A DNA stretch of 64,000 bases from Diplonema papillatum (Eukaryota; Euglenozoa; Diplonemea; Diplonemida; Diplonemidae). The notes beneath the pieces were generated by a model. It worked only from the letters and a program-made list of their open reading frames with translations. It made no database searches and was not told where the DNA came from. Shown piece by piece: positions 11,673 through 45,473 of the stretch. The DNA lies in contig JAPJBO010000473.1 of the NCBI GenBank assembly GCA_030068145.1, positions 108,505-172,504 on the forward strand, written 5' to 3'. The position numbers and the translations under genes were made by a program. The number at the start of each line of letters is the position of its first letter. Position 1 is the first letter of the stretch.

Positions 11673-14600
11673 ATGCCAAAGACGGTGCAGCAAGATGCGG
11701 ACAAGCCATTGTGGACATCGATAAACCGCACTGAGAAGGATGACGGGAGTGTAGACGAGGTTGTAACGCTGGTGGTGGAGGCGTTCCACCCCCGATTCAA
11801 GGCTGCCCAGGACCTGATGGAAATGATAGCGGAGCCCGCCAGCCGCACGCAGCGACTGCACATATTCAAGCTGACCGACGACTCGCTATACACTGCTGTC
11901 ACGCTCGGTAGGACGGGTGCCGAAGTCGTCAAAGAGGTGGCGGCGCTCTCCAAGAACCCGCCTTCGCCCGACGTGGAAGCGTACATTCTGTCCCGTGCGA
12001 ACAAAGCCGGCAAGGTCCGCTTGGTGTTGGACACGAAGCGGGAACTGACCGAAGGCGACGAGGGAAAGCGGCTCGTCGGGGGTAGGTATGCCGCATCCCC
12101 CAAAAACCGAGTTTCTTTCTCTACGCGAGATTACTGTTCCCGCTGAGCTTGCCTTAGGACACCTGCGTTAATGTGTAGCAGACGTGCCGCCCCTGCCAAA
12201 CTCCCCACCTGACTGGTGTCTCCAAACGAGGATTCGCGAGCCGAAGCCTGTTTGTCGCTGGAAACGGATAAGCTACGGATCCGAAGCCCGAACCCCACAA
12301 GGGAGCAGCTGCACGGTCTTGCACGGGGAAGTCCAGCCTCTCCCCCCAAGCTGGAGTTGAAAGATGGAGTGGAGAAAGCGGGTGTCACACCCGATTTTCG
12401 GGTGTGGATTAATACGAGTTTTGGTTGTGTCAGACCCGCTTTGCGCGTGTGACTCGGACACACCCTCTTTAACTCCAGCTTCTGAGGCACCTCACTGTGT
12501 GGTTGTGGTTACTTGTTGTTCAGCCCGTGAGCCAAAGCGACGACTGAGAGGCTACCTCCTACTCCACTGGGCGGATTTTGCGAAGCGGGAAACACACGTG
12601 TAACAGCCAGTCTTTTTTGTGGTCGGGTACGGAATACCGGCCAGCACAGCTGCTGGTGTTCCTTTCTCTGCCGTGATTCCGCTGTCAGCCGGCATTCACG
12701 CATTATCTGCAGAAAGCGGATGACAGCCAACACTACAAATAGGTACGCAGTTGTGCGCACATGGAGGACGAAGTACACTTTGACTAGTTTCGTCGAGATG
12801 GACGCCGACGTGGAAAAGCTGGTGCTGAATGACCCATTGGTGAAAACGAAGTACCTGCTTCCGGATACAATTGAAACGAGGATCATCGGCGATGATCAGC
12901 AAGTCGTCAAGTTCGAAGTGTCGCCAGCAGCGTCGCTCATCGACATGAAGCGAGATTTCAAAGAACGGATGAGGCTGCCACTCGACTCGGTGTACTCTTT
13001 CAGTACCGATTACAATACTCCAGACGTGAAGCTCCGTCTGAAGTCGACTGCGCGCCTTCGCCCATATCAATCGTTGACATTGAGTAAAACACTGGGCAAC
13101 GGCCGAGCGCGCAGCGGCCTCATCGTGTTGCCATGCGGCGCAGGTAAGACGTTGGTCGGTGTCGCCACCGCCGCTCTTCTTGGTTTGGCTTCTTTCTTTT
13201 GCTTTTTGCAAACCTTTGCATCAGTCGATATCGTTGCCATTTACTCCTCAGTTTACCTCCGTCGACAATTTTCTCCCACCTTGCAGTCCAAAAACCGAAA
13301 CTTCGCAACGGGAAACGGGAGACTCCCGAGTCGACGAACATACAAACTACAGGGAAAGCCACAATTGTCGTTTGTCTGAACTCCCTGACGGTCATGCAGT
13401 GGTGGCAGCAGTTCCGACTGTGGACGGACGTCCACCACAAGACGTTATCTGTGTTCACGGCGGAGAAGAAGGAGGCTCCGGGTGACATCGTCATCACCAC
13501 ATACTCCATGCTGGGGTTCCCAGACGATAGGCGCGCTGAAGGCAGCCCCGAGCTTATTGAAGCGTTGCGATCAAAGGAATGGGGTCTCATGCTCATGGAT
13601 GAAGTACACGTAGCTCCTGCTGATACATTCAGAATGATCCTCAACCGAGTGCGCGCTCACTGCATCATCGGGCTCACCGCGACATTGCTCCGTGAGGACG
13701 ACAAGATTTCGAATTTGCAGTATCTTATCGGCCCCAAACTCTACGAAGCCAACTGGAAAGAGCTGTGTGATGCTGGGTATGTCCCTCTTCTTTTGTTTTG
13801 TCGGTCTCTGTTGTTGTGTGCGTGATTGACTCACTCCAGTGATTAGTTTTCTTGCCTAAAGACTACCAGTCTTTTTCATTTGCAAATCTTTGATATCATT
13901 TCATGCTTGACCTATGAAGGTAGTGGTCTAGAAGTCCATTTCCTGTATTTGGGCACTACCCCCTTTTCCCGAACTGGGGGGCCCTGCAAACGATAAGCGA
14001 ATGCGACTGATGTCGACGTGGGTAAATGCGAGAATATTGACAGCTCGGACTTTTCTGTGCGTCAAGGGTCACCCACACTGGCAGCCACTTGCACTGCAAT
14101 TTGTTGCATTAGTGTGTGTGGGCCTTTGAAGCGTGGATGATGCCTCTCGCGCTGCTCCCCTTGAGGTTCCTGGCTCATGCCAAAGCGCCGCCGCCCGGGT
14201 TAAGGGGTTGCGGCATCAGGGCCAGGGAGACTGTTCGGAGGGGTCACCACCCACCGTTCGCGGGCTTCGTTACTTCACTGCCCCCGGCTCTCCCCGGCCT
14301 TCGTCATCCCGGGGGAGGGTTTCACGGCCATCCCCCCCCGCGTGGGGAATGGACTGGTGCTGTGCCGCGGGTCCTTCCGTGCGTCCTCGCGACGTCGCCG
14401 CTGTCGATGTCGCTGCCGCTGTTGCTGCCGCTGCAGCCGCTGTCGGGCGGTTGGTTGACGATCCCGGTCTGCACCCCGCCCGTTGCGCGTCGGCTTTCTT
14501 CTTCTTGGCGTTCGCTAGGACGTCCCAAAGGTGGCGGCTGCCGCCGCCGCGTGCGCGGCGGTGCGTCGCCCGGTCGTGTCTTGCCCGTGCCTTCCACTAT

Positions 14601-30908: not shown

Positions 30909-33671
30909 ATGCGGATGGCAACGGCAGCGTGGATTGTACTCTCGGCGCAAGTCGCCGCGATTGTAGTGTTTTTCTCCGGTTTTATTCTTCCGCGCAGCGT
31001 TTGCAAAGATGTAGCCACAGGGTCGAGCGATGCACAGGAAATGAAGACTTGGTACAACCGTCAGGATGCGAAGATCCTCGTCTTCATCATTGACGCTCTG
31101 AGGTATCAACTTCGTTATACATCTTGATAAGGTAGTCTTCTATCTGCAGCTTGCATTGGGACCGACACGGCCTGTGTGGTGATACTCGCAAATCGTTAGG
31201 TAGCTGTTGCATCCACAAGCGGTCAAAAAAAATGCAGGTACGACATGGTTGTCGGACAGGACGCGTTGTTTCCATCTTTGAAAGCGAAAGGGTGGCTGCT
31301 AAAAGCAGAGGCCCCAACCACGACAAGTCAGCGACTAAAGGCAATGACAACAGGAGGGATACCAGCATTCATCGAGGTAGCGAAGGCATTCGACAGTGAC
31401 GAGGTTTTACAAGACAATCTCCTGAAACAACTGCTGAGCAATGGGAAATCCGCTGCAGTGCTTGGGGATGATACATGGCTGGCCCTGTACCCAGAAAAGT
31501 ATTGGGACTACGTCGCTGTTTTTCCTTCGTTTAACGTTTGGGATCTGGATACCGTAGATCGTGGAATTGAAGCAAGTATCGATGCCATATTTGACAATAC
31601 AGGGGGCCTGCAGCATGATTTCACGGTAGTGCACTTCTTGGGTGTGGACCACGCTGGTCATAGGTATGGACCACGGCATCCGGAGATGAAGAGGAAGGGG
31701 AAGGAAGTCAACGCTGTGATCGACAGAGTGACAGATACTTTGAGAAAACGAGAATGTGCCACCGAGTTGTGTCCAGGTGCCCATTTTTTTGTCTTGGGTG
31801 ACCACGGCATGACCGATGATGGGCAGCATGGCGGTGGCACAGAGCTCGAAGTCACTTCGATACTGCATTACGAGCTTGTCTCGCCTTTCGCCGATGGTGA
31901 TGTAGACGAAACGTTCCGCGAGAGGTTCGAGGTCATCGATCAAAAGGATCTGACCCCATTGTGGGCAGTGCTGCTTGGTGTTCCGATACCACACGGCAAT
32001 CTGGGAATTGTAAACCGGCACATTCTGAATAAAACCTGCGGTGGTGACTGCTGGGGGAAGGACACCAATGAGCGCATCAGGTACATTACGTCACTCAGTC
32101 ACAATGTGAGGCAGATGCTTCAGGGGCTTTCTGGATCCCCTGAGATTGATGTCCGGCATTTAGCCAACGACTTCAACATGATGCAGGGGAAGATCAGCAG
32201 ATACAAAAGGCATGCACTTAGTGCAGGCGTTCGATGGGCTGAGCCTTCAGCCAAGGATCTGTCCGATGCAACAGCAGGGAACCGTACCCTGGATAAGTTG
32301 TCGCAAGTCACTCTTCGTCTGACTGGTGAGTCTTTGATACAGGAGTTAGAACGACTGGCGTTCACCATCAGAAGCGAATCGCAAAAGCAGTGGTCTCGAA
32401 TGGTACCCGAGAGGCTGTATTGTGGTGCCTTCCTCTCCTTTTGTGCCGTCGTTGTGGCAGGTTACGATGCACATCGAGCGGCGAAGGCTATCACACGGTA
32501 TTCAACATCTGCTCCTTCGGTGCAAGTGGATGTGTTGGGCCCTTTTCTTGTAGTTGTCCACGCAATGGCGCTCTTCTCGAATAGCTACGTTGTCGCTGAG
32601 GAGTCCGTGGTCCGCTTCTTGTTTGCATCGCTGCTGCTGTTTCATGCCGCTCGACAACGATCCTTTCGGTTAATTGTTGTGTGCTGTATAAGCCGATGCC
32701 TGTTGCAGCTTCTAGACAGGCGTCCGAAGAGACAATTTGGCAGCCACGTTCTGTTGCCTCCACTTGGAGACACAATCCCTGTGCACGACTTGGCAACTGT
32801 TCCAGACTTCGTGTTTCTCGTAGGATTACCGCTAGCGCTGATGGCAGCAGGTTCTTTTCTCATGTCGGGCTCTCGTGCTCGAACCGAGGGTGTAGGGTGT
32901 GTATCCGGGTTAAACAGCTCTGCCATTCAGCTTGGGCACTGCCCCACACCACAGGGAATAATACTCTTGATTGTGGCAGCTGACGGCTTTTTCAAAGCTG
33001 TCACACCTCGAAGCATTTCTCAATGGGTCGCTTTGGTGTGTGTTTCGGCGTGCATACTTCTCCTTCTGAAAGCGCGATCGGTTGGCAATGCCCGGCTTTG
33101 TTTATGGGCGCTCGCCTGTCTTTTAACGGGTCCAAGGGCCACATGGCTGTGGGTTTTGGTGTTTGCTGGCATCCAATCTATCGATATGGAAGGTATCCAT
33201 GATCGCTCTCCCCAGGCAGAAAGGCGGACGTGTGAGTTGCGTTTCAGTTCGACTGAGCATGCAGTGGCTATGTCGCTGTTTGCATGGTTGGTGTTTTTTG
33301 CGTCAGGGCACCAAACAGTCCTGTCTGGTGTCGACTTCGAAAGTGCGTTTGTTGGGTTTGATGTCCTCCACCACATGGTGCAAGGCGTTTTGATGGTTGG
33401 TTTTAATACGTTCGCAGCTTTCATTATACCCGCCGGGCGCCCAAGGGGCACACTCATTTGCTTCGCAGTGCTGCTGACCGCCGCTTTGTTTAGCACAGCT
33501 TTGCACCGAGAGCACCTGATGGTGTGGGAAGTGTTTGCTCCTCGGATGCTATTCGCTTGTGTCATTACACTAGTGTCCACCACCGCAGTCCTTATAGCCG
33601 ACCTAGTAGAGTGCTCAAAGAATAGACGACTTGTCATGAATGACCTTCGCAGTCGAGCACCTTCCCTGTAG
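30909..33671 (+). CDS. PIGO: GPI ethanolamine phosphate transferase 3 (PIG-O)
   Basis: Exons 30909-31102 and 31238-33671 join in phase 2 at the invariant IIDALR|Y to give 875 residues. N-terminal signal anchor, then an alkaline-phosphatase-fold lumenal domain: Asp62 in IIDALR, the Thr of PTTT (91-94), the PSFNVWDLDTVD block, GVDHAGH (metal D202/H206), GDHGM (D253/H254) and QHGG (H262). The remaining ~450 residues are a polytopic membrane domain. The PTTTSQRLKAMTTGGIP block and the PSFNVWDLDTVD words distinguish PIG-O from PIG-G and PIG-N. It transfers phosphoethanolamine to the third mannose of the GPI precursor in the ER, the group that later links to protein. It is shorter than animal PIG-O (about 1,090). 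A second ATG two codons in is equally possible. Confidence 0.94.
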
Positions 33672-34490
33672 CCAGGAGTTGACTAACAGCCTGTGGAGTC
33701 TTGGCTGTCCTGTTCCCATGCTTCAGTCGTGCATCCTCTTTCTTTGCGTCGTGCATGAGAACCTGACTGCGAAACTACGCATACTCAATAGGATGTCGCT
33801 GCAATGCACTCACCACGTTCAGGTCATCACCTTCAGGTGTTCAGCCTGAATATCTAGGCTAGTATTATCGTGGTGTTCCGAGCTCTCCTTAAAAGAAAAG
33901 CGATTCTGACATGATGCAGTCAGAGGAATTCCGATGCATTAATGGCATCGGCCCACCACTGGGAGTATCCTAGTGTGAGCAGCAAATGACCGGTTTCACC
34001 CTCTGTTGCTTTGGCTCATGCACCAGCATAAGAGCATACAGCATCAGGAATGAGGAGGCAGAGACCACCACCGCTCAGCTACATAACGGCAATCTTCACC
34101 CCATTTCCATATTTCTGTGACGGCTCCTCATAGAAGTCTCAGAGTCCAAACGCAGGTGAGACAGTTGTTTCCAATTGTTGATCTTCTACTGTATTCCATA
34201 AACACTCGGACTCTTGTTGCGTAAGTAGTATGGTCCTTTGACAGAGTGGGCCAATGCCTCTCATCTCATCTTAAAATACAGCTGTGCCACGCATGTTGTT
34301 GTCACGTTCTTGTTGTGTTAGTGGGCAGTCATTTGCATGCCAATCAGTACCAAACTATAAACACACACAGTGGATGTCTCTCGTGCAGGAAGGCACTAAC
34401 TAAATACTAAAAACGGGTCAACACACACGCACCTCCGGGGTCCACACATACATCAACGTAGAAGTGCAATTTCGCTCATCCCTGAAGGAC
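33672..34490. other. Intergenic, no recognisable gene
   Basis: About 820 bp between PIG-O and the ubiquitin ligase; presumably a 3' UTR plus promoter. Nothing specific seen. Confidence 0.65.
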
Positions 34491-36191
34491 ATGCCACGAG
34501 GTCAGCGGCAATGCCCTCTGTGCTGGAAACTATTCGATGCGTCGCAGATTGAAGTACACGCCGACCAGTGTCCGGGTGTAGTAGAGGACGGCAAACAGCC
34601 GACGATGCTGTCACCATCTCTGTCACGCTCGCCGCCTTCCGCCCGTGCAAAGCGGGGCACCCGCAAGAGAAAGTCGGATGTAGCAGTCATTTCTCTATCG
34701 CCTGAGCGCCTGTCGCAACCAGATGCATTTTCGTGTACGAGCTGCAGAAGCCGGTTGGGAAACGATAGTGTATACGGGTCGGATTGCGGGCATTTCCTTT
34801 GTGCAACTTGCGCACGGCAGTCTATTGAACAAGCAGCTACACAAGAAACGGCAATGGCCCATACTATCCCTTGCCCTTCCTGTCCGTGCAACTCTTCTGC
34901 AGTCCTCCCTACTGTCGATGTCCGGAGGCTAGCACTGGACACCACCCTCAAAACCCTTGACCGCCACGAAACCCACTCCAGCACCCACCTCGTCAAGTGT
35001 CCCCAATGCCCTTTCACCTTTGAACCAGCACTGCCCCCTCAACCCGCAAAAAAGCCGTCGCCACCAGCTAAAAAGGGCCGCAAGAAGAAGCAAAAGGTTG
35101 CACCGCCGGGCCCTGATGTCGTAATCAACGGCAAAAGCATCTCTAGTACAGCTGCGGCACACCGGGAGACATACAGACACCGGTGTCCTGCGTGTTCTGC
35201 AGAGTTCTGTTCAACTTGCGGACTCACCCCGTACCATCTGGGGTACACGTGTGAAGGGTATGTCGACCACAAGTCTCGCCCTTTATGTCGATACTGCGAC
35301 ATGGATTTACCCAAGAAACGTTCGAAAAACGCCGTTCAGCCGACACACTGCAAGCAAGCAGATTGTGTGTCACGCTCGAAGAGGCAGTGCAGCGCAACAC
35401 TGGTTTGCGGGCACCCCTGCAATGGATGTGACGGAGAGGCGACACATTTGGCGTGTATGAAGGAAGACTGTGCGTCCGCAAATCCTGCCAAACCATCTGA
35501 AGACGAGCTTTGCAATGTTTGTTATGTCGAGGAGCTGAAGGCCGCTCCATGTGTGTCGTTGAAGTGCGGGCATGTTTTCCATTTCCACTGCCTCGAAAAG
35601 AAGATTTCTCGGAAGTGGGTCACTGATTACATCTCCTTCAGCTTTCTGAATTGCCCATTGTGCAATGCTCTGATGGAAAGTGATGTTCTCACCGCGCTCA
35701 TGCAGCCACACCTTGACTACCAAGCGAATGTGGTACGCCTACGACGCGAGCGAATGACTGCCGAAGGAATCGAGACAGAGCAGAAGGCAGCAAGAGTGAT
35801 GAGCTACTACCCGTGTTTCAAGTGCGGGGTACCATACTACGGAGGCCGCCGGGAATGCAACGCCAACAACGATCAGGAGCTGGAAGGAAAGGTGCAGAAG
35901 GAGGACATGGTCTGCCCTTCGTGTTCGCAAGGTGCAGGGGTCGAGTCGTGTCCCACACACGGAACAACATACATCGAGCACAAATGCAGGTACTGTTGCT
36001 CGGTCGCGTCGTTCTTCTGCTGGGGTACGACACACTTCTGCGCTATTTGCCATGAGACACGCCGCTCAGCCACAAAGGCCTGCGGGGGTAAGCGTGTTTG
36101 CCCGTTGGGTGTCGACCACCCACCACATGGCACCGAGTACCCCCTTGGCTGCGGGCTATGTAGAGCCCACTCAAGGGACAGTGCCGTGTGA
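34491..36191 (+). CDS. RING-IBR plus RING/tandem-cysteine (RCR, MYCBP2/PHR-type) E3 ubiquitin ligase
   Basis: Single exon, 566 residues from ATG 34491. Order: a C2H2-like zinc finger (CPLCWKLF...HADQC, 8-27), basic linker, a RING with DCGHFLCATC (C82-about 129), an IBR-like domain with its last ligands in CPACSAEFCSTC and HLGYTC (170-254, split by a Lys-rich insert), a Cys-rich linker with CGHPCNGC, a RING-H2 (C341-C391, CGHVFHFHC), a helical linker, and a C-terminal tandem-cysteine domain. The latter part matches the catalytic module of human MYCBP2, known to esterify ubiquitin to threonine by cysteine relay. Cys456 (GGRREC) and Cys510 (FFCWGTTHF) occupy the positions of relay cysteines C4520 and C4572, with the following HFC..CH conserved. 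So the chemistry is probably RING-cysteine-relay. The giant RCC1/PHR parts of animal homologues are absent, and the RING-IBR pair is not part of animal PHR proteins as I know them. Confidence 0.9.
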   Translation: MPRGQRQCPLCWKLFDASQIEVHADQCPGVVEDGKQPTMLSPSLSRSPPSARAKRGTRKRKSDVAVISLSPERLSQPDAFSCTSCRSRLGNDSVYGSDCGHFLCATCARQSIEQAATQETAMAHTIPCPSCPCNSSAVLPTVDVRRLALDTTLKTLDRHETHSSTHLVKCPQCPFTFEPALPPQPAKKPSPPAKKGRKKKQKVAPPGPDVVINGKSISSTAAAHRETYRHRCPACSAEFCSTCGLTPYHLGYTCEGYVDHKSRPLCRYCDMDLPKKRSKNAVQPTHCKQADCVSRSKRQCSATLVCGHPCNGCDGEATHLACMKEDCASANPAKPSEDELCNVCYVEELKAAPCVSLKCGHVFHFHCLEKKISRKWVTDYISFSFLNCPLCNALMESDVLTALMQPHLDYQANVVRLRRERMTAEGIETEQKAARVMSYYPCFKCGVPYYGGRRECNANNDQELEGKVQKEDMVCPSCSQGAGVESCPTHGTTYIEHKCRYCCSVASFFCWGTTHFCAICHETRRSATKACGGKRVCPLGVDHPPHGTEYPLGCGLCRAHSRDSAV

Positions 36192-37084
36192 CATGGGATG
36201 TTTCACGAGCCTGTTCCACCGATCGGGGACTTTGTGCACAATTTCTTTGTCGACAAACAATCCACCCCTTCCGACTGTCTTGTAGAGCAAAAAGCTCTGT
36301 TCCCGGTACTCACACACGGCATTGAATACCTCCGTTGCCGTTGTAGGTACAACAGGAGCACTGTTGTGTGACATGTATTTTGCCCAAGTTTGCGCCGCTT
36401 GCTACTTTTTGTCACATGTGTTTGTCACTTTAAGAAGCTCGCTCACAAAGCGCCATGAACTACTAGGTTCGGCATTCTTGATCGGTGCTTACAAAGTCAC
36501 TCAGTTCAGCTTTCTCAGTTGATGCCCGGCCTTACTGTGCTCATGCAGCTATGGGGTCACACACCTTGGAGCTTGGTGCTCACCACAAGCATGTGCACCT
36601 TAGTTCCCTGCAGAGCGCTCAGCGCTGTGGCGCTGAGCGGACTTCGCTCTCAAACTCCCGATTGCGTGCGGTTGACCATGCTCTTGGTTTTTTGTTGTGC
36701 ACAGTGTCTGAGTGAAGGAAGTAGCCATTAGAGGCCTAAAGGGAGCGATAACAAACTCTTTCCTGTCTAGAGGAGGTCTCTCTTGAAGAGGCCTGGGACC
36801 TGAGAGAGAGAGAGGACACCAAACTGGAGCTGAGCCTCAGATGATACCAATCCGGTGGCGCTCCTGAACTAGCCTGGACCGACAGGATCAAAGACTGTCG
36901 GTCACACTTTCCTCGACTTCTTTCCGTCCCGGGTTTACACAACCCCTGAATCAAAGACCGAAGCCAGTAGTAGCCGGGCGATGATTCTTACACCCAAAGA
37001 GAGTTCCTTCACCAAGCGGCCATTATACTCCTCCACAAGATTTGCCGACCAAGCCCGTACAGCTGTGCCGCTGGGGGAACTCAC
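36192..37084. other. Intergenic, with a perfect 10-bp hairpin
   Basis: No gene recognised. Bases 36616-36639 form CGCTCAGCGC-TGTG-GCGCTGAGCG, a perfect 10-bp stem with a four-base loop. Confidence 0.6.
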
Positions 37085-37676
37085 CAGGCGTAGAGTCGTT
37101 AGTCGGAGGAACGTCTGCACCTGCACAGACTGAAGCGAAGTGGGCTCCCGCAGTGTCAGCCTTTACTTTGTACACAATGCACCTGGAAAAGTCAGCTGCC
37201 GCCGTCGTCAGGTATTCCATTTTGGCATCCGCAATGAGGCCATCAAGCCTGTCTTGCGCTTCAACAATGCTCTGGTTCATCAATGCAATCGGGAGACCTC
37301 GGGGCTTCAGGCCGGCACGCTCCGCCCACATTGCGTCTCCAGCTTCCATGGTCTCTCTCACATCCGTGCTGCGTACGGAGGAAATATGTGGAAGTGGTGT
37401 TGCACAGTGGCTTGAGGGTGTTGTTGCACGCGGTTGAGTCGAGGAGCGGATACGTGTCCACACGTTGCGAAGGGTTGACCGTATGAGCTGGAACGATGTG
37501 AGCGCGCGGTTATGTCGTGTTTGAGGGCCTGGGTGAGGGTGGACATCGCCACATAGGAGGAGCAATGCGAGTTGCCAGACACTGCCCACAACAGAAAACT
37601 GGAACACCCCCAACAGGCAGCACAAAATAAACACCCCCTCCCTTCTCCACCCCCCGGGTCCCCCCTCCCAACTCAA
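37085..37676 (-). CDS. Minus-strand frame with 2A-like / LINE N-terminus-like motif
   Basis: An open minus-strand frame without an ATG at its start. It encodes a hydrophobic segment directly followed by LLLLCGDVHPHPGP (motif at 37524-37553), then a basic region and a helical C-terminal part (EAQDRLDGLIADAKMEYL). A strong donor (CTG|GTGAGT) would end it at 37085. The hydrophobic run plus GDVxPxPGP is what one sees at the N-terminus of many CR1-like non-LTR elements and 2A-like peptides. The usual NPGP is HPGP here, which should weaken or abolish ribosomal skipping. No endonuclease or reverse transcriptase follows. It lies head to head with the gene starting at 37685, so it may be a relic overlapping that promoter. 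Confidence 0.35.
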
Positions 37677-37684
37677 GCAACAAG

Positions 37685-45473
<7,789 letters not shown>

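Follow-up and report, generated by a model that had tools for sequence, protein, structure and literature searches.

Does the two-cysteine relay chemistry of the ubiquitin ligase MYCBP2 depend on its giant scaffold, or can it be carried by a small protein with a front end of another kind? This question is raised by a locus on contig C473 of Diplonema papillatum, which lies in the 64-kb stretch of DNA analysed here (hereafter, the window); searches of the genome covered 271 Mb in 2,910 contigs. Positions 34491-36191 of the window (+ strand) form a single frame of 566 codons with no internal stop. The closest in-frame upstream stop is a TAA at 34401-34403, 30 codons 5' of the ATG, and translation of the interval between the two yields no further in-frame ATG, the whole stop-free span being 595 codons. 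Read from its N-terminus, the 566-aa product contains a UBZ-like finger, a RING1-like finger, an IBR-like half-RING, a Cys/His cluster, a RING, and a tandem-cysteine (TC) domain.

The C-terminal part of the product is homologous to the RING-Cys-relay (RCR) module of MYCBP2. Residues 330-559 retrieved the MYCBP2 RCR constructs from the PDB (phmmer; 5o6c, E 5.1e-46, and 6t7f, E 9.1e-46), the next PDB match being an APC11 chain at E 0.0055, and a profile of the three members found in this genome matched the human MYCBP2 RCR at E 1e-88. The Smith-Waterman score of the window copy against the human RCR is 472, while 500 full shuffles reached at most 62 and 500 shuffles with every Cys and His held fixed reached at most 170, so the similarity amounts to more than a cysteine pattern. 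With 40.6% identity over 219 aligned residues, the window copy lies furthest from the human RCR, the other two members reaching 45.6% and 49.8%. Counted as positions and not as zinc ligands, 28 of the 33 Cys/His positions of the human fragment are kept in the window copy, those lost being C4417, H4446, H4477, H4599, and H4617 in human numbering; the corresponding counts are 28/33 for the paralog on contig C509, 30/33 for that on contig C973, and 27/33 for positions common to all three.

Within this module, the RING-H2 runs from C341 to C391 (35511-35663, + strand), aligns with that of MYCBP2, and provides the sole Pfam match above cut-off in the 566 aa (zf-RING_2, 27.6 bits against a cut-off of 27.3). 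The TC zinc domain occupies residues 439-557 (35805-36161, + strand), as placed by the PDB match, the profile, and the alignment. All three methods (phmmer, profile, and alignment) agree that a TC domain homologous to that of MYCBP2 comes after the RING, which is one feature of the RCR E3 class, and the RCR-type RING and TC that the original prediction had placed at the C-terminus are borne out by both E-values and by the shuffle control.

In the passages on MYCBP2 in PMC9527308 and PMC6769291, ubiquitin moves from a RING-bound E2 to a first cysteine, which sits on a flexible mediator loop, and then to a second cysteine that esterifies threonine, aided by a histidine acting as base and by a pocket of three phenylalanines; a passage in PMC12664034 gives MYCBP2 C4520S as an inactive mutant. 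When the window copy was aligned with the human RCR, C4520 fell on C456 (codon 35856-35858, + strand), the upstream relay cysteine, and C4572 on C510 (36018-36020, + strand), the predicted downstream esterifying cysteine. Both cysteines had been matched beforehand to the relay cysteines of MYCBP2 by their local motifs, GGxxxC for C456 and FFCxGTTHF for C510, and these motifs read in the sequence as claimed. The same alignment places H4583, the general base, on H521 (36051-36053, + strand) and E4534 on D472 (35904-35906, + strand). Here we take E4534, C4572, F4573, F4578, H4583, and F4586 to be the relay and pocket residues of MYCBP2, and we assume that residue numbers in MYCBP2 are shifted by 4377 relative to those of the 5o6c chain. 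The two primary papers on the RCR are Pao 2018 and Mabbitt 2020.

C456, C510, and H521 are invariant in all three genome members, and the position of E4534 is Asp in the window copy and in C973 and Glu in C509. In the pocket, F4573 is replaced by W511 and F4586 by R524, F4578 corresponds to F516, and one phenylalanine of three is thus kept. Because the relay residues of MYCBP2 are present except for two pocket residues and the Glu-to-Asp change, we infer that the same relay operates here. The three-phenylalanine pocket is a specificity feature and not the relay itself, and since two of its three phenylalanines are changed, the acceptor preference of the window protein may differ from that of MYCBP2. 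Taken with the Asp at the E4534 position, the substitutions by W511 and R524 mean that the chemistry, too, could differ.

Searching the genome with the 566-residue query gave eight matches, which include the query itself, the C509 and C973 paralogs, a fragment beside C509, and an N-terminal fragment on contig C664; on contigs C341, C611, and C1823 the matches are confined to the RING and its surroundings. The human RCR query gave seven: the complete module in each of the three members, the fragment beside C509, and again the RING matches on C341, C611, and C1823. No fourth full RCR was found with it in the 271-Mb genome. The C509 paralog (C509:30829-32346) is a 499-codon frame that starts inside RING1, and inspection of three frames of the flanking DNA did not reveal the absent beginning. 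The core of the C973 paralog (C973:57882-58760) lies within a 1,887-codon frame, and this paralog, unlike the window copy, has a long additional region that contains more Cys-rich stretches. The order of IBR-like part, Cys/His cluster, RING, and TC is common to all three members. When the C509 front end alone was used as the query, at least four matches were obtained at E up to 0.1, all of them within the three RCR members, so the front end and the RCR travel together in this genome.

Some further details of these paralogous loci were recorded. The full C509 gene is followed immediately on its downstream side by a C-terminal TC fragment, C509:30492-30803 (L005). This fragment is a partial duplication in place, and it reads GTTRF at the GTTHF motif of the full gene. 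The 1,887-codon frame on C973 (L009:2362-8022, - strand) comprises, by eye, a long low-complexity region and Cys-rich stretches in addition to the IBR-RCR core.

Upstream of the RCR module, the window copy has a full C3HC4 set from C82 to C131 (34734-34883, + strand). A profile for the RING1/IBR-like front (A3) matched RNF144A RING1 in the PDB (1wim, E 7.9e-4; 6l99, E 8.8e-4), then RNF4 (0.0071). This RING1-like finger corresponds to the other of the two RINGs in the original prediction. One ligand position of this finger is missing from each paralog in the alignment, C104 being Ser in C509 and H101 being Leu in C973.

The next part, from C170 to C254 (34998-35252, + strand), is an IBR-like half-RING with a lysine-rich insertion, identified by a sub-cut-off Pfam match, hhalign, and alignment. 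Pfam IBR_1 scored 15.1 bits against a cut-off of 27 (E 0.021) and 16.6 bits in a second scan (E 0.0073), and the PDB chain that this half matched best in profile A3 was 5obz (E 0.0071), a 'putative transcription factor' and not an IBR. In the same part of C509 and C973, the Pfam scan gave no IBR family, C509 having a TFIIH C1-like match there (E 0.1). Alignment of A3 by hhalign with three RBR-type proteins from the same genome covered RING1 and then IBR, with a probability of 95.5% and a score of 61.9; a fourth RBR-type locus (L016) was left out of these three, and the RING1 of L015 is partial. Two sets of 100 permuted controls reached at most 23.7 and 24.7, the Cys/His columns being kept in the latter. 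The 4-member RCR profile (A2) scored 44.0 against the same three proteins (probability 80.7), a caution that part of the similarity between A3 and the RBR proteins is general RING resemblance. Additionally, IBR_1 matches the RING2 region of the Ariadne protein of Diplonema papillatum, and the IBR-like part may therefore stem from a RING2. No second half-RING was assigned after it in the Pfam scan. The IBR assignment is the weakest of the domain calls, and the IBR of the original prediction stands only in part: an IBR-like set (170-254) does lie upstream of the RCR, but Pfam IBR_1 remains below cut-off and 5obz is a rival match.

Between the IBR-like part and the RCR module lies a Cys/His cluster from C266 to C327 (35286-35471, + strand; CRYC...CxxxxC...CGHPC...C), which is mostly invariant in the alignment of the three members and has no Pfam match over 35310-35484. 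This cluster and a finger at the N-terminus are parts that had not been predicted previously. The finger, at residues 5-27 (34503-34571, + strand; CPLC...H...C), is a UBZ4-like C2HC finger. A phmmer search of the PDB with these residues, which returned 14 sequences at E up to 10, matched the WRNIP1 UBZ (3vhs, E 0.0024) and RAP80 (E 0.0056), and also ZBTB20 zinc fingers at E 0.005. It has the CPxC...H...C spacing of the UBZ4 fingers of WRNIP1 and RAP80, but unlike them it falls below the Pfam cut-off (zf-C2HC_2 and zf-WRNIP1_ubi), and its ubiquitin binding is putative. Pfam scans of C509 and C973 gave no UBZ match. A basic stretch further on, KRGTRKRK (residues 54-61; 34650-34673, + strand), was read from the translation as a possible nuclear localisation signal.

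The UBZ-like finger and its linker form part of a duplicated segment. A 170-bp stretch of the window (34480-34649, + strand) has a second copy, 96% identical, at C664:44172-44341 (L018), and a DNA search of the genome with this piece found these two places only. The duplicate has sharp edges, and the ATG of the window frame is GTG there.

Several other features were recorded in the window. A frame at 31245-33671 contains a phosphodiesterase domain over the Pfam cut-off and PIGO_PIGG just below its cut-off, and probably encodes a portion of a GPI ethanolamine phosphate transferase. On the - strand, 12100-12197 is a fragment that matches eukaryotic LSU rRNA (53.5 bits against a cut-off of 50), apparently a stray rDNA piece. 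This fragment, the genome's size, and its genes are those of a eukaryote; an exon of ribosomal protein L3, compared with the PDB, pointed to no single lineage. Downstream of the ligase frame, a frame at 37026-37676 (- strand) carries LLLLCGDVHPHPGP, which we take to resemble the 2A-like motif with which some LINE elements start, and has no Pfam match; a 354-aa open frame at 37685-38749 has no Pfam match at E up to 0.01. The frame at 41479-42573 encodes a reverse transcriptase (RVT_1, E 4.4e-20) and is probably a non-LTR retroelement, and the frame that follows it (42534-43439) has no Pfam match.

We consider it likely that the window protein is a compact RCR-type ubiquitin E3 whose front end has no catalytic role and serves to bind ubiquitin or substrate. 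A charged E2 would dock on the RING (341-391), ubiquitin would pass to C456 and then to C510, and C510, together with H521 and D472, would transfer it to the hydroxyl group of threonine or serine, or perhaps to a different hydroxyl. The non-catalytic front end would be made up of the Cys/His cluster together with the UBZ4-like finger and the RING1/IBR-like pair; through binding ubiquitin or substrate it would position or restrain the relay, a task that falls to the large scaffold in MYCBP2. The sequences themselves show the homology, the matching residues, the domain order, and the recurrence of the core order in two paralogs, whereas enzyme activity, the ester chemistry, the choice of acceptor, and what the front end does are predictions.

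The same sequence could instead be that of a plain RING ligase in which the TC domain is retained for its role in the fold, the relay is dead, and ubiquitin passes directly from the E2 to lysine. Such an enzyme would accommodate D472 and the altered pocket residues, as well as a RING that alone exceeds its Pfam cut-off. However, a dead relay sits poorly with the fact that neither the two relay cysteines nor the base histidine vary among the three members. Many RING E3s have a linchpin arginine right after the last RING cysteine, and the residue found there across the three members is Asn, Ser, or Gln, which also argues against a plain RING ligase. We therefore regard this explanation as unlikely.

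A double-mechanism ligase, as raised in the original prediction, would use RING1 to dock a second E2, alone or with a cryptic RING2, beside the RCR relay. The RING1 of the window copy does have a full C3HC4 set and does resemble that of RNF144A, and the CxHxC stretch in the unassigned cluster at 266-327 might conceivably represent a divergent RING2. Nevertheless, inspection of the alignment by eye found no cysteine, in any of the three members, among the ten residues that precede the second-half CxxC of the IBR-like part, the place expected for an RBR catalytic cysteine, and this, together with the RING1 ligand position lost in each of the two paralogs, leaves the double mechanism unsupported; the cluster, moreover, is without a Pfam match. 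We judge a double mechanism to be very improbable. Almost negligible, in our estimation, is the chance that two adjacent genes, a RING1-IBR gene and then a separate RCR gene, have been misread as one. The one-gene reading does come from the genomic frame, but the window copy is one unbroken frame, C509 keeps the IBR-like part, cluster, and RCR in one frame of 499 codons beginning within RING1, and C973 keeps them inside one frame of 1,887 codons. The dead relay, the double mechanism, and the two-gene artefact were each rejected on these points.

The compact RCR-type ligase that we favour suggests that a rare two-cysteine relay chemistry is not tied to the giant animal scaffold. If the reading is right, the relay can be detached from the neuronal scaffold and joined to a front end of RBR-like type, and a natural version of 566 residues with intact relay residues would be a small, tractable enzyme for studies of ester-linked ubiquitylation. 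The differing residues at the F4586 position in the three paralogs make acceptor selectivity directly testable. A broader scenario can be put forward only tentatively, as one that we rather doubt: the RCR may form a separate class of eukaryotic E3s that predates the giant PHR scaffold and does not depend on it, in which an RBR front end lost its RING2 and gave control to the relay module, and in which a reshaped pocket esterifies a non-threonine acceptor.

With respect to the scaffold, Pfam scans of the three members gave no match to RCC1, PHR, or DOC, in agreement with the earlier claim that the 566-aa protein has no detectable RCC1/PHR scaffold. Elsewhere in the genome there are 41 matches to RCC1 repeats, none of them on C473, C509, or C973; the PHR domain had no match in the genome, a weak result since 14 prokaryotic control genomes also gave none. 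No NCBIfam family was assigned to any of the three members. In viral contigs and bacterial and archaeal genomes, searches with a 3-member profile (A1) and with A2 gave, in that order, 6, 67, 71, and 92 pattern stretches and no confirmed relatives, which, given the nature of these collections, says little about eukaryotes. Among the literature matches listed (titles and the beginnings of abstracts, with partial coverage), none described a protein that joins an IBR to an RCR, or any RCR ligase that is not a PHR protein. IBR-RCR proteins may be common in eukaryotes and simply unannotated.

Membership in two known groups was considered. By architecture the window protein is not a PHR protein, that is, an orthologue of MYCBP2, Highwire, or RPM-1, as RCC1/PHR repeats were not found in it; nor is it an RBR E3, the RING2 catalytic cysteine being missing in all three members. 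Similar to MYCBP2 and the other PHR proteins, it has the RING, the TC domain, the two relay cysteines, the base histidine, and the GTTHF motif. MYCBP2, however, exceeds 4,600 aa, whereas the window protein has 566 aa, carries RING1/IBR-like and UBZ-like parts upstream, and gives no RCC1/PHR match. Figure legends for RPM-1 show a B-box before the RING (PMC9073554, PMC2627918). With the RBR ligases (ARIH1, RNF144A, and parkin), in which the IBR helps to position the ubiquitin of the E2 according to a passage in PMC12773759, the window protein shares a RING1-like finger followed by an IBR-like half-RING. The portion of a human E3 catalogue that addresses these enzymes describes the RING1-IBR-RING2 triad as invariably linked (PMC13061254). 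Against that human picture, it would be unusual for RING1 and IBR to lack RING2 and to be joined to an RCR module. In the window protein no catalytic RING2 cysteine was found, and the RCR module takes the place that RING2 has in the RBR ligases.
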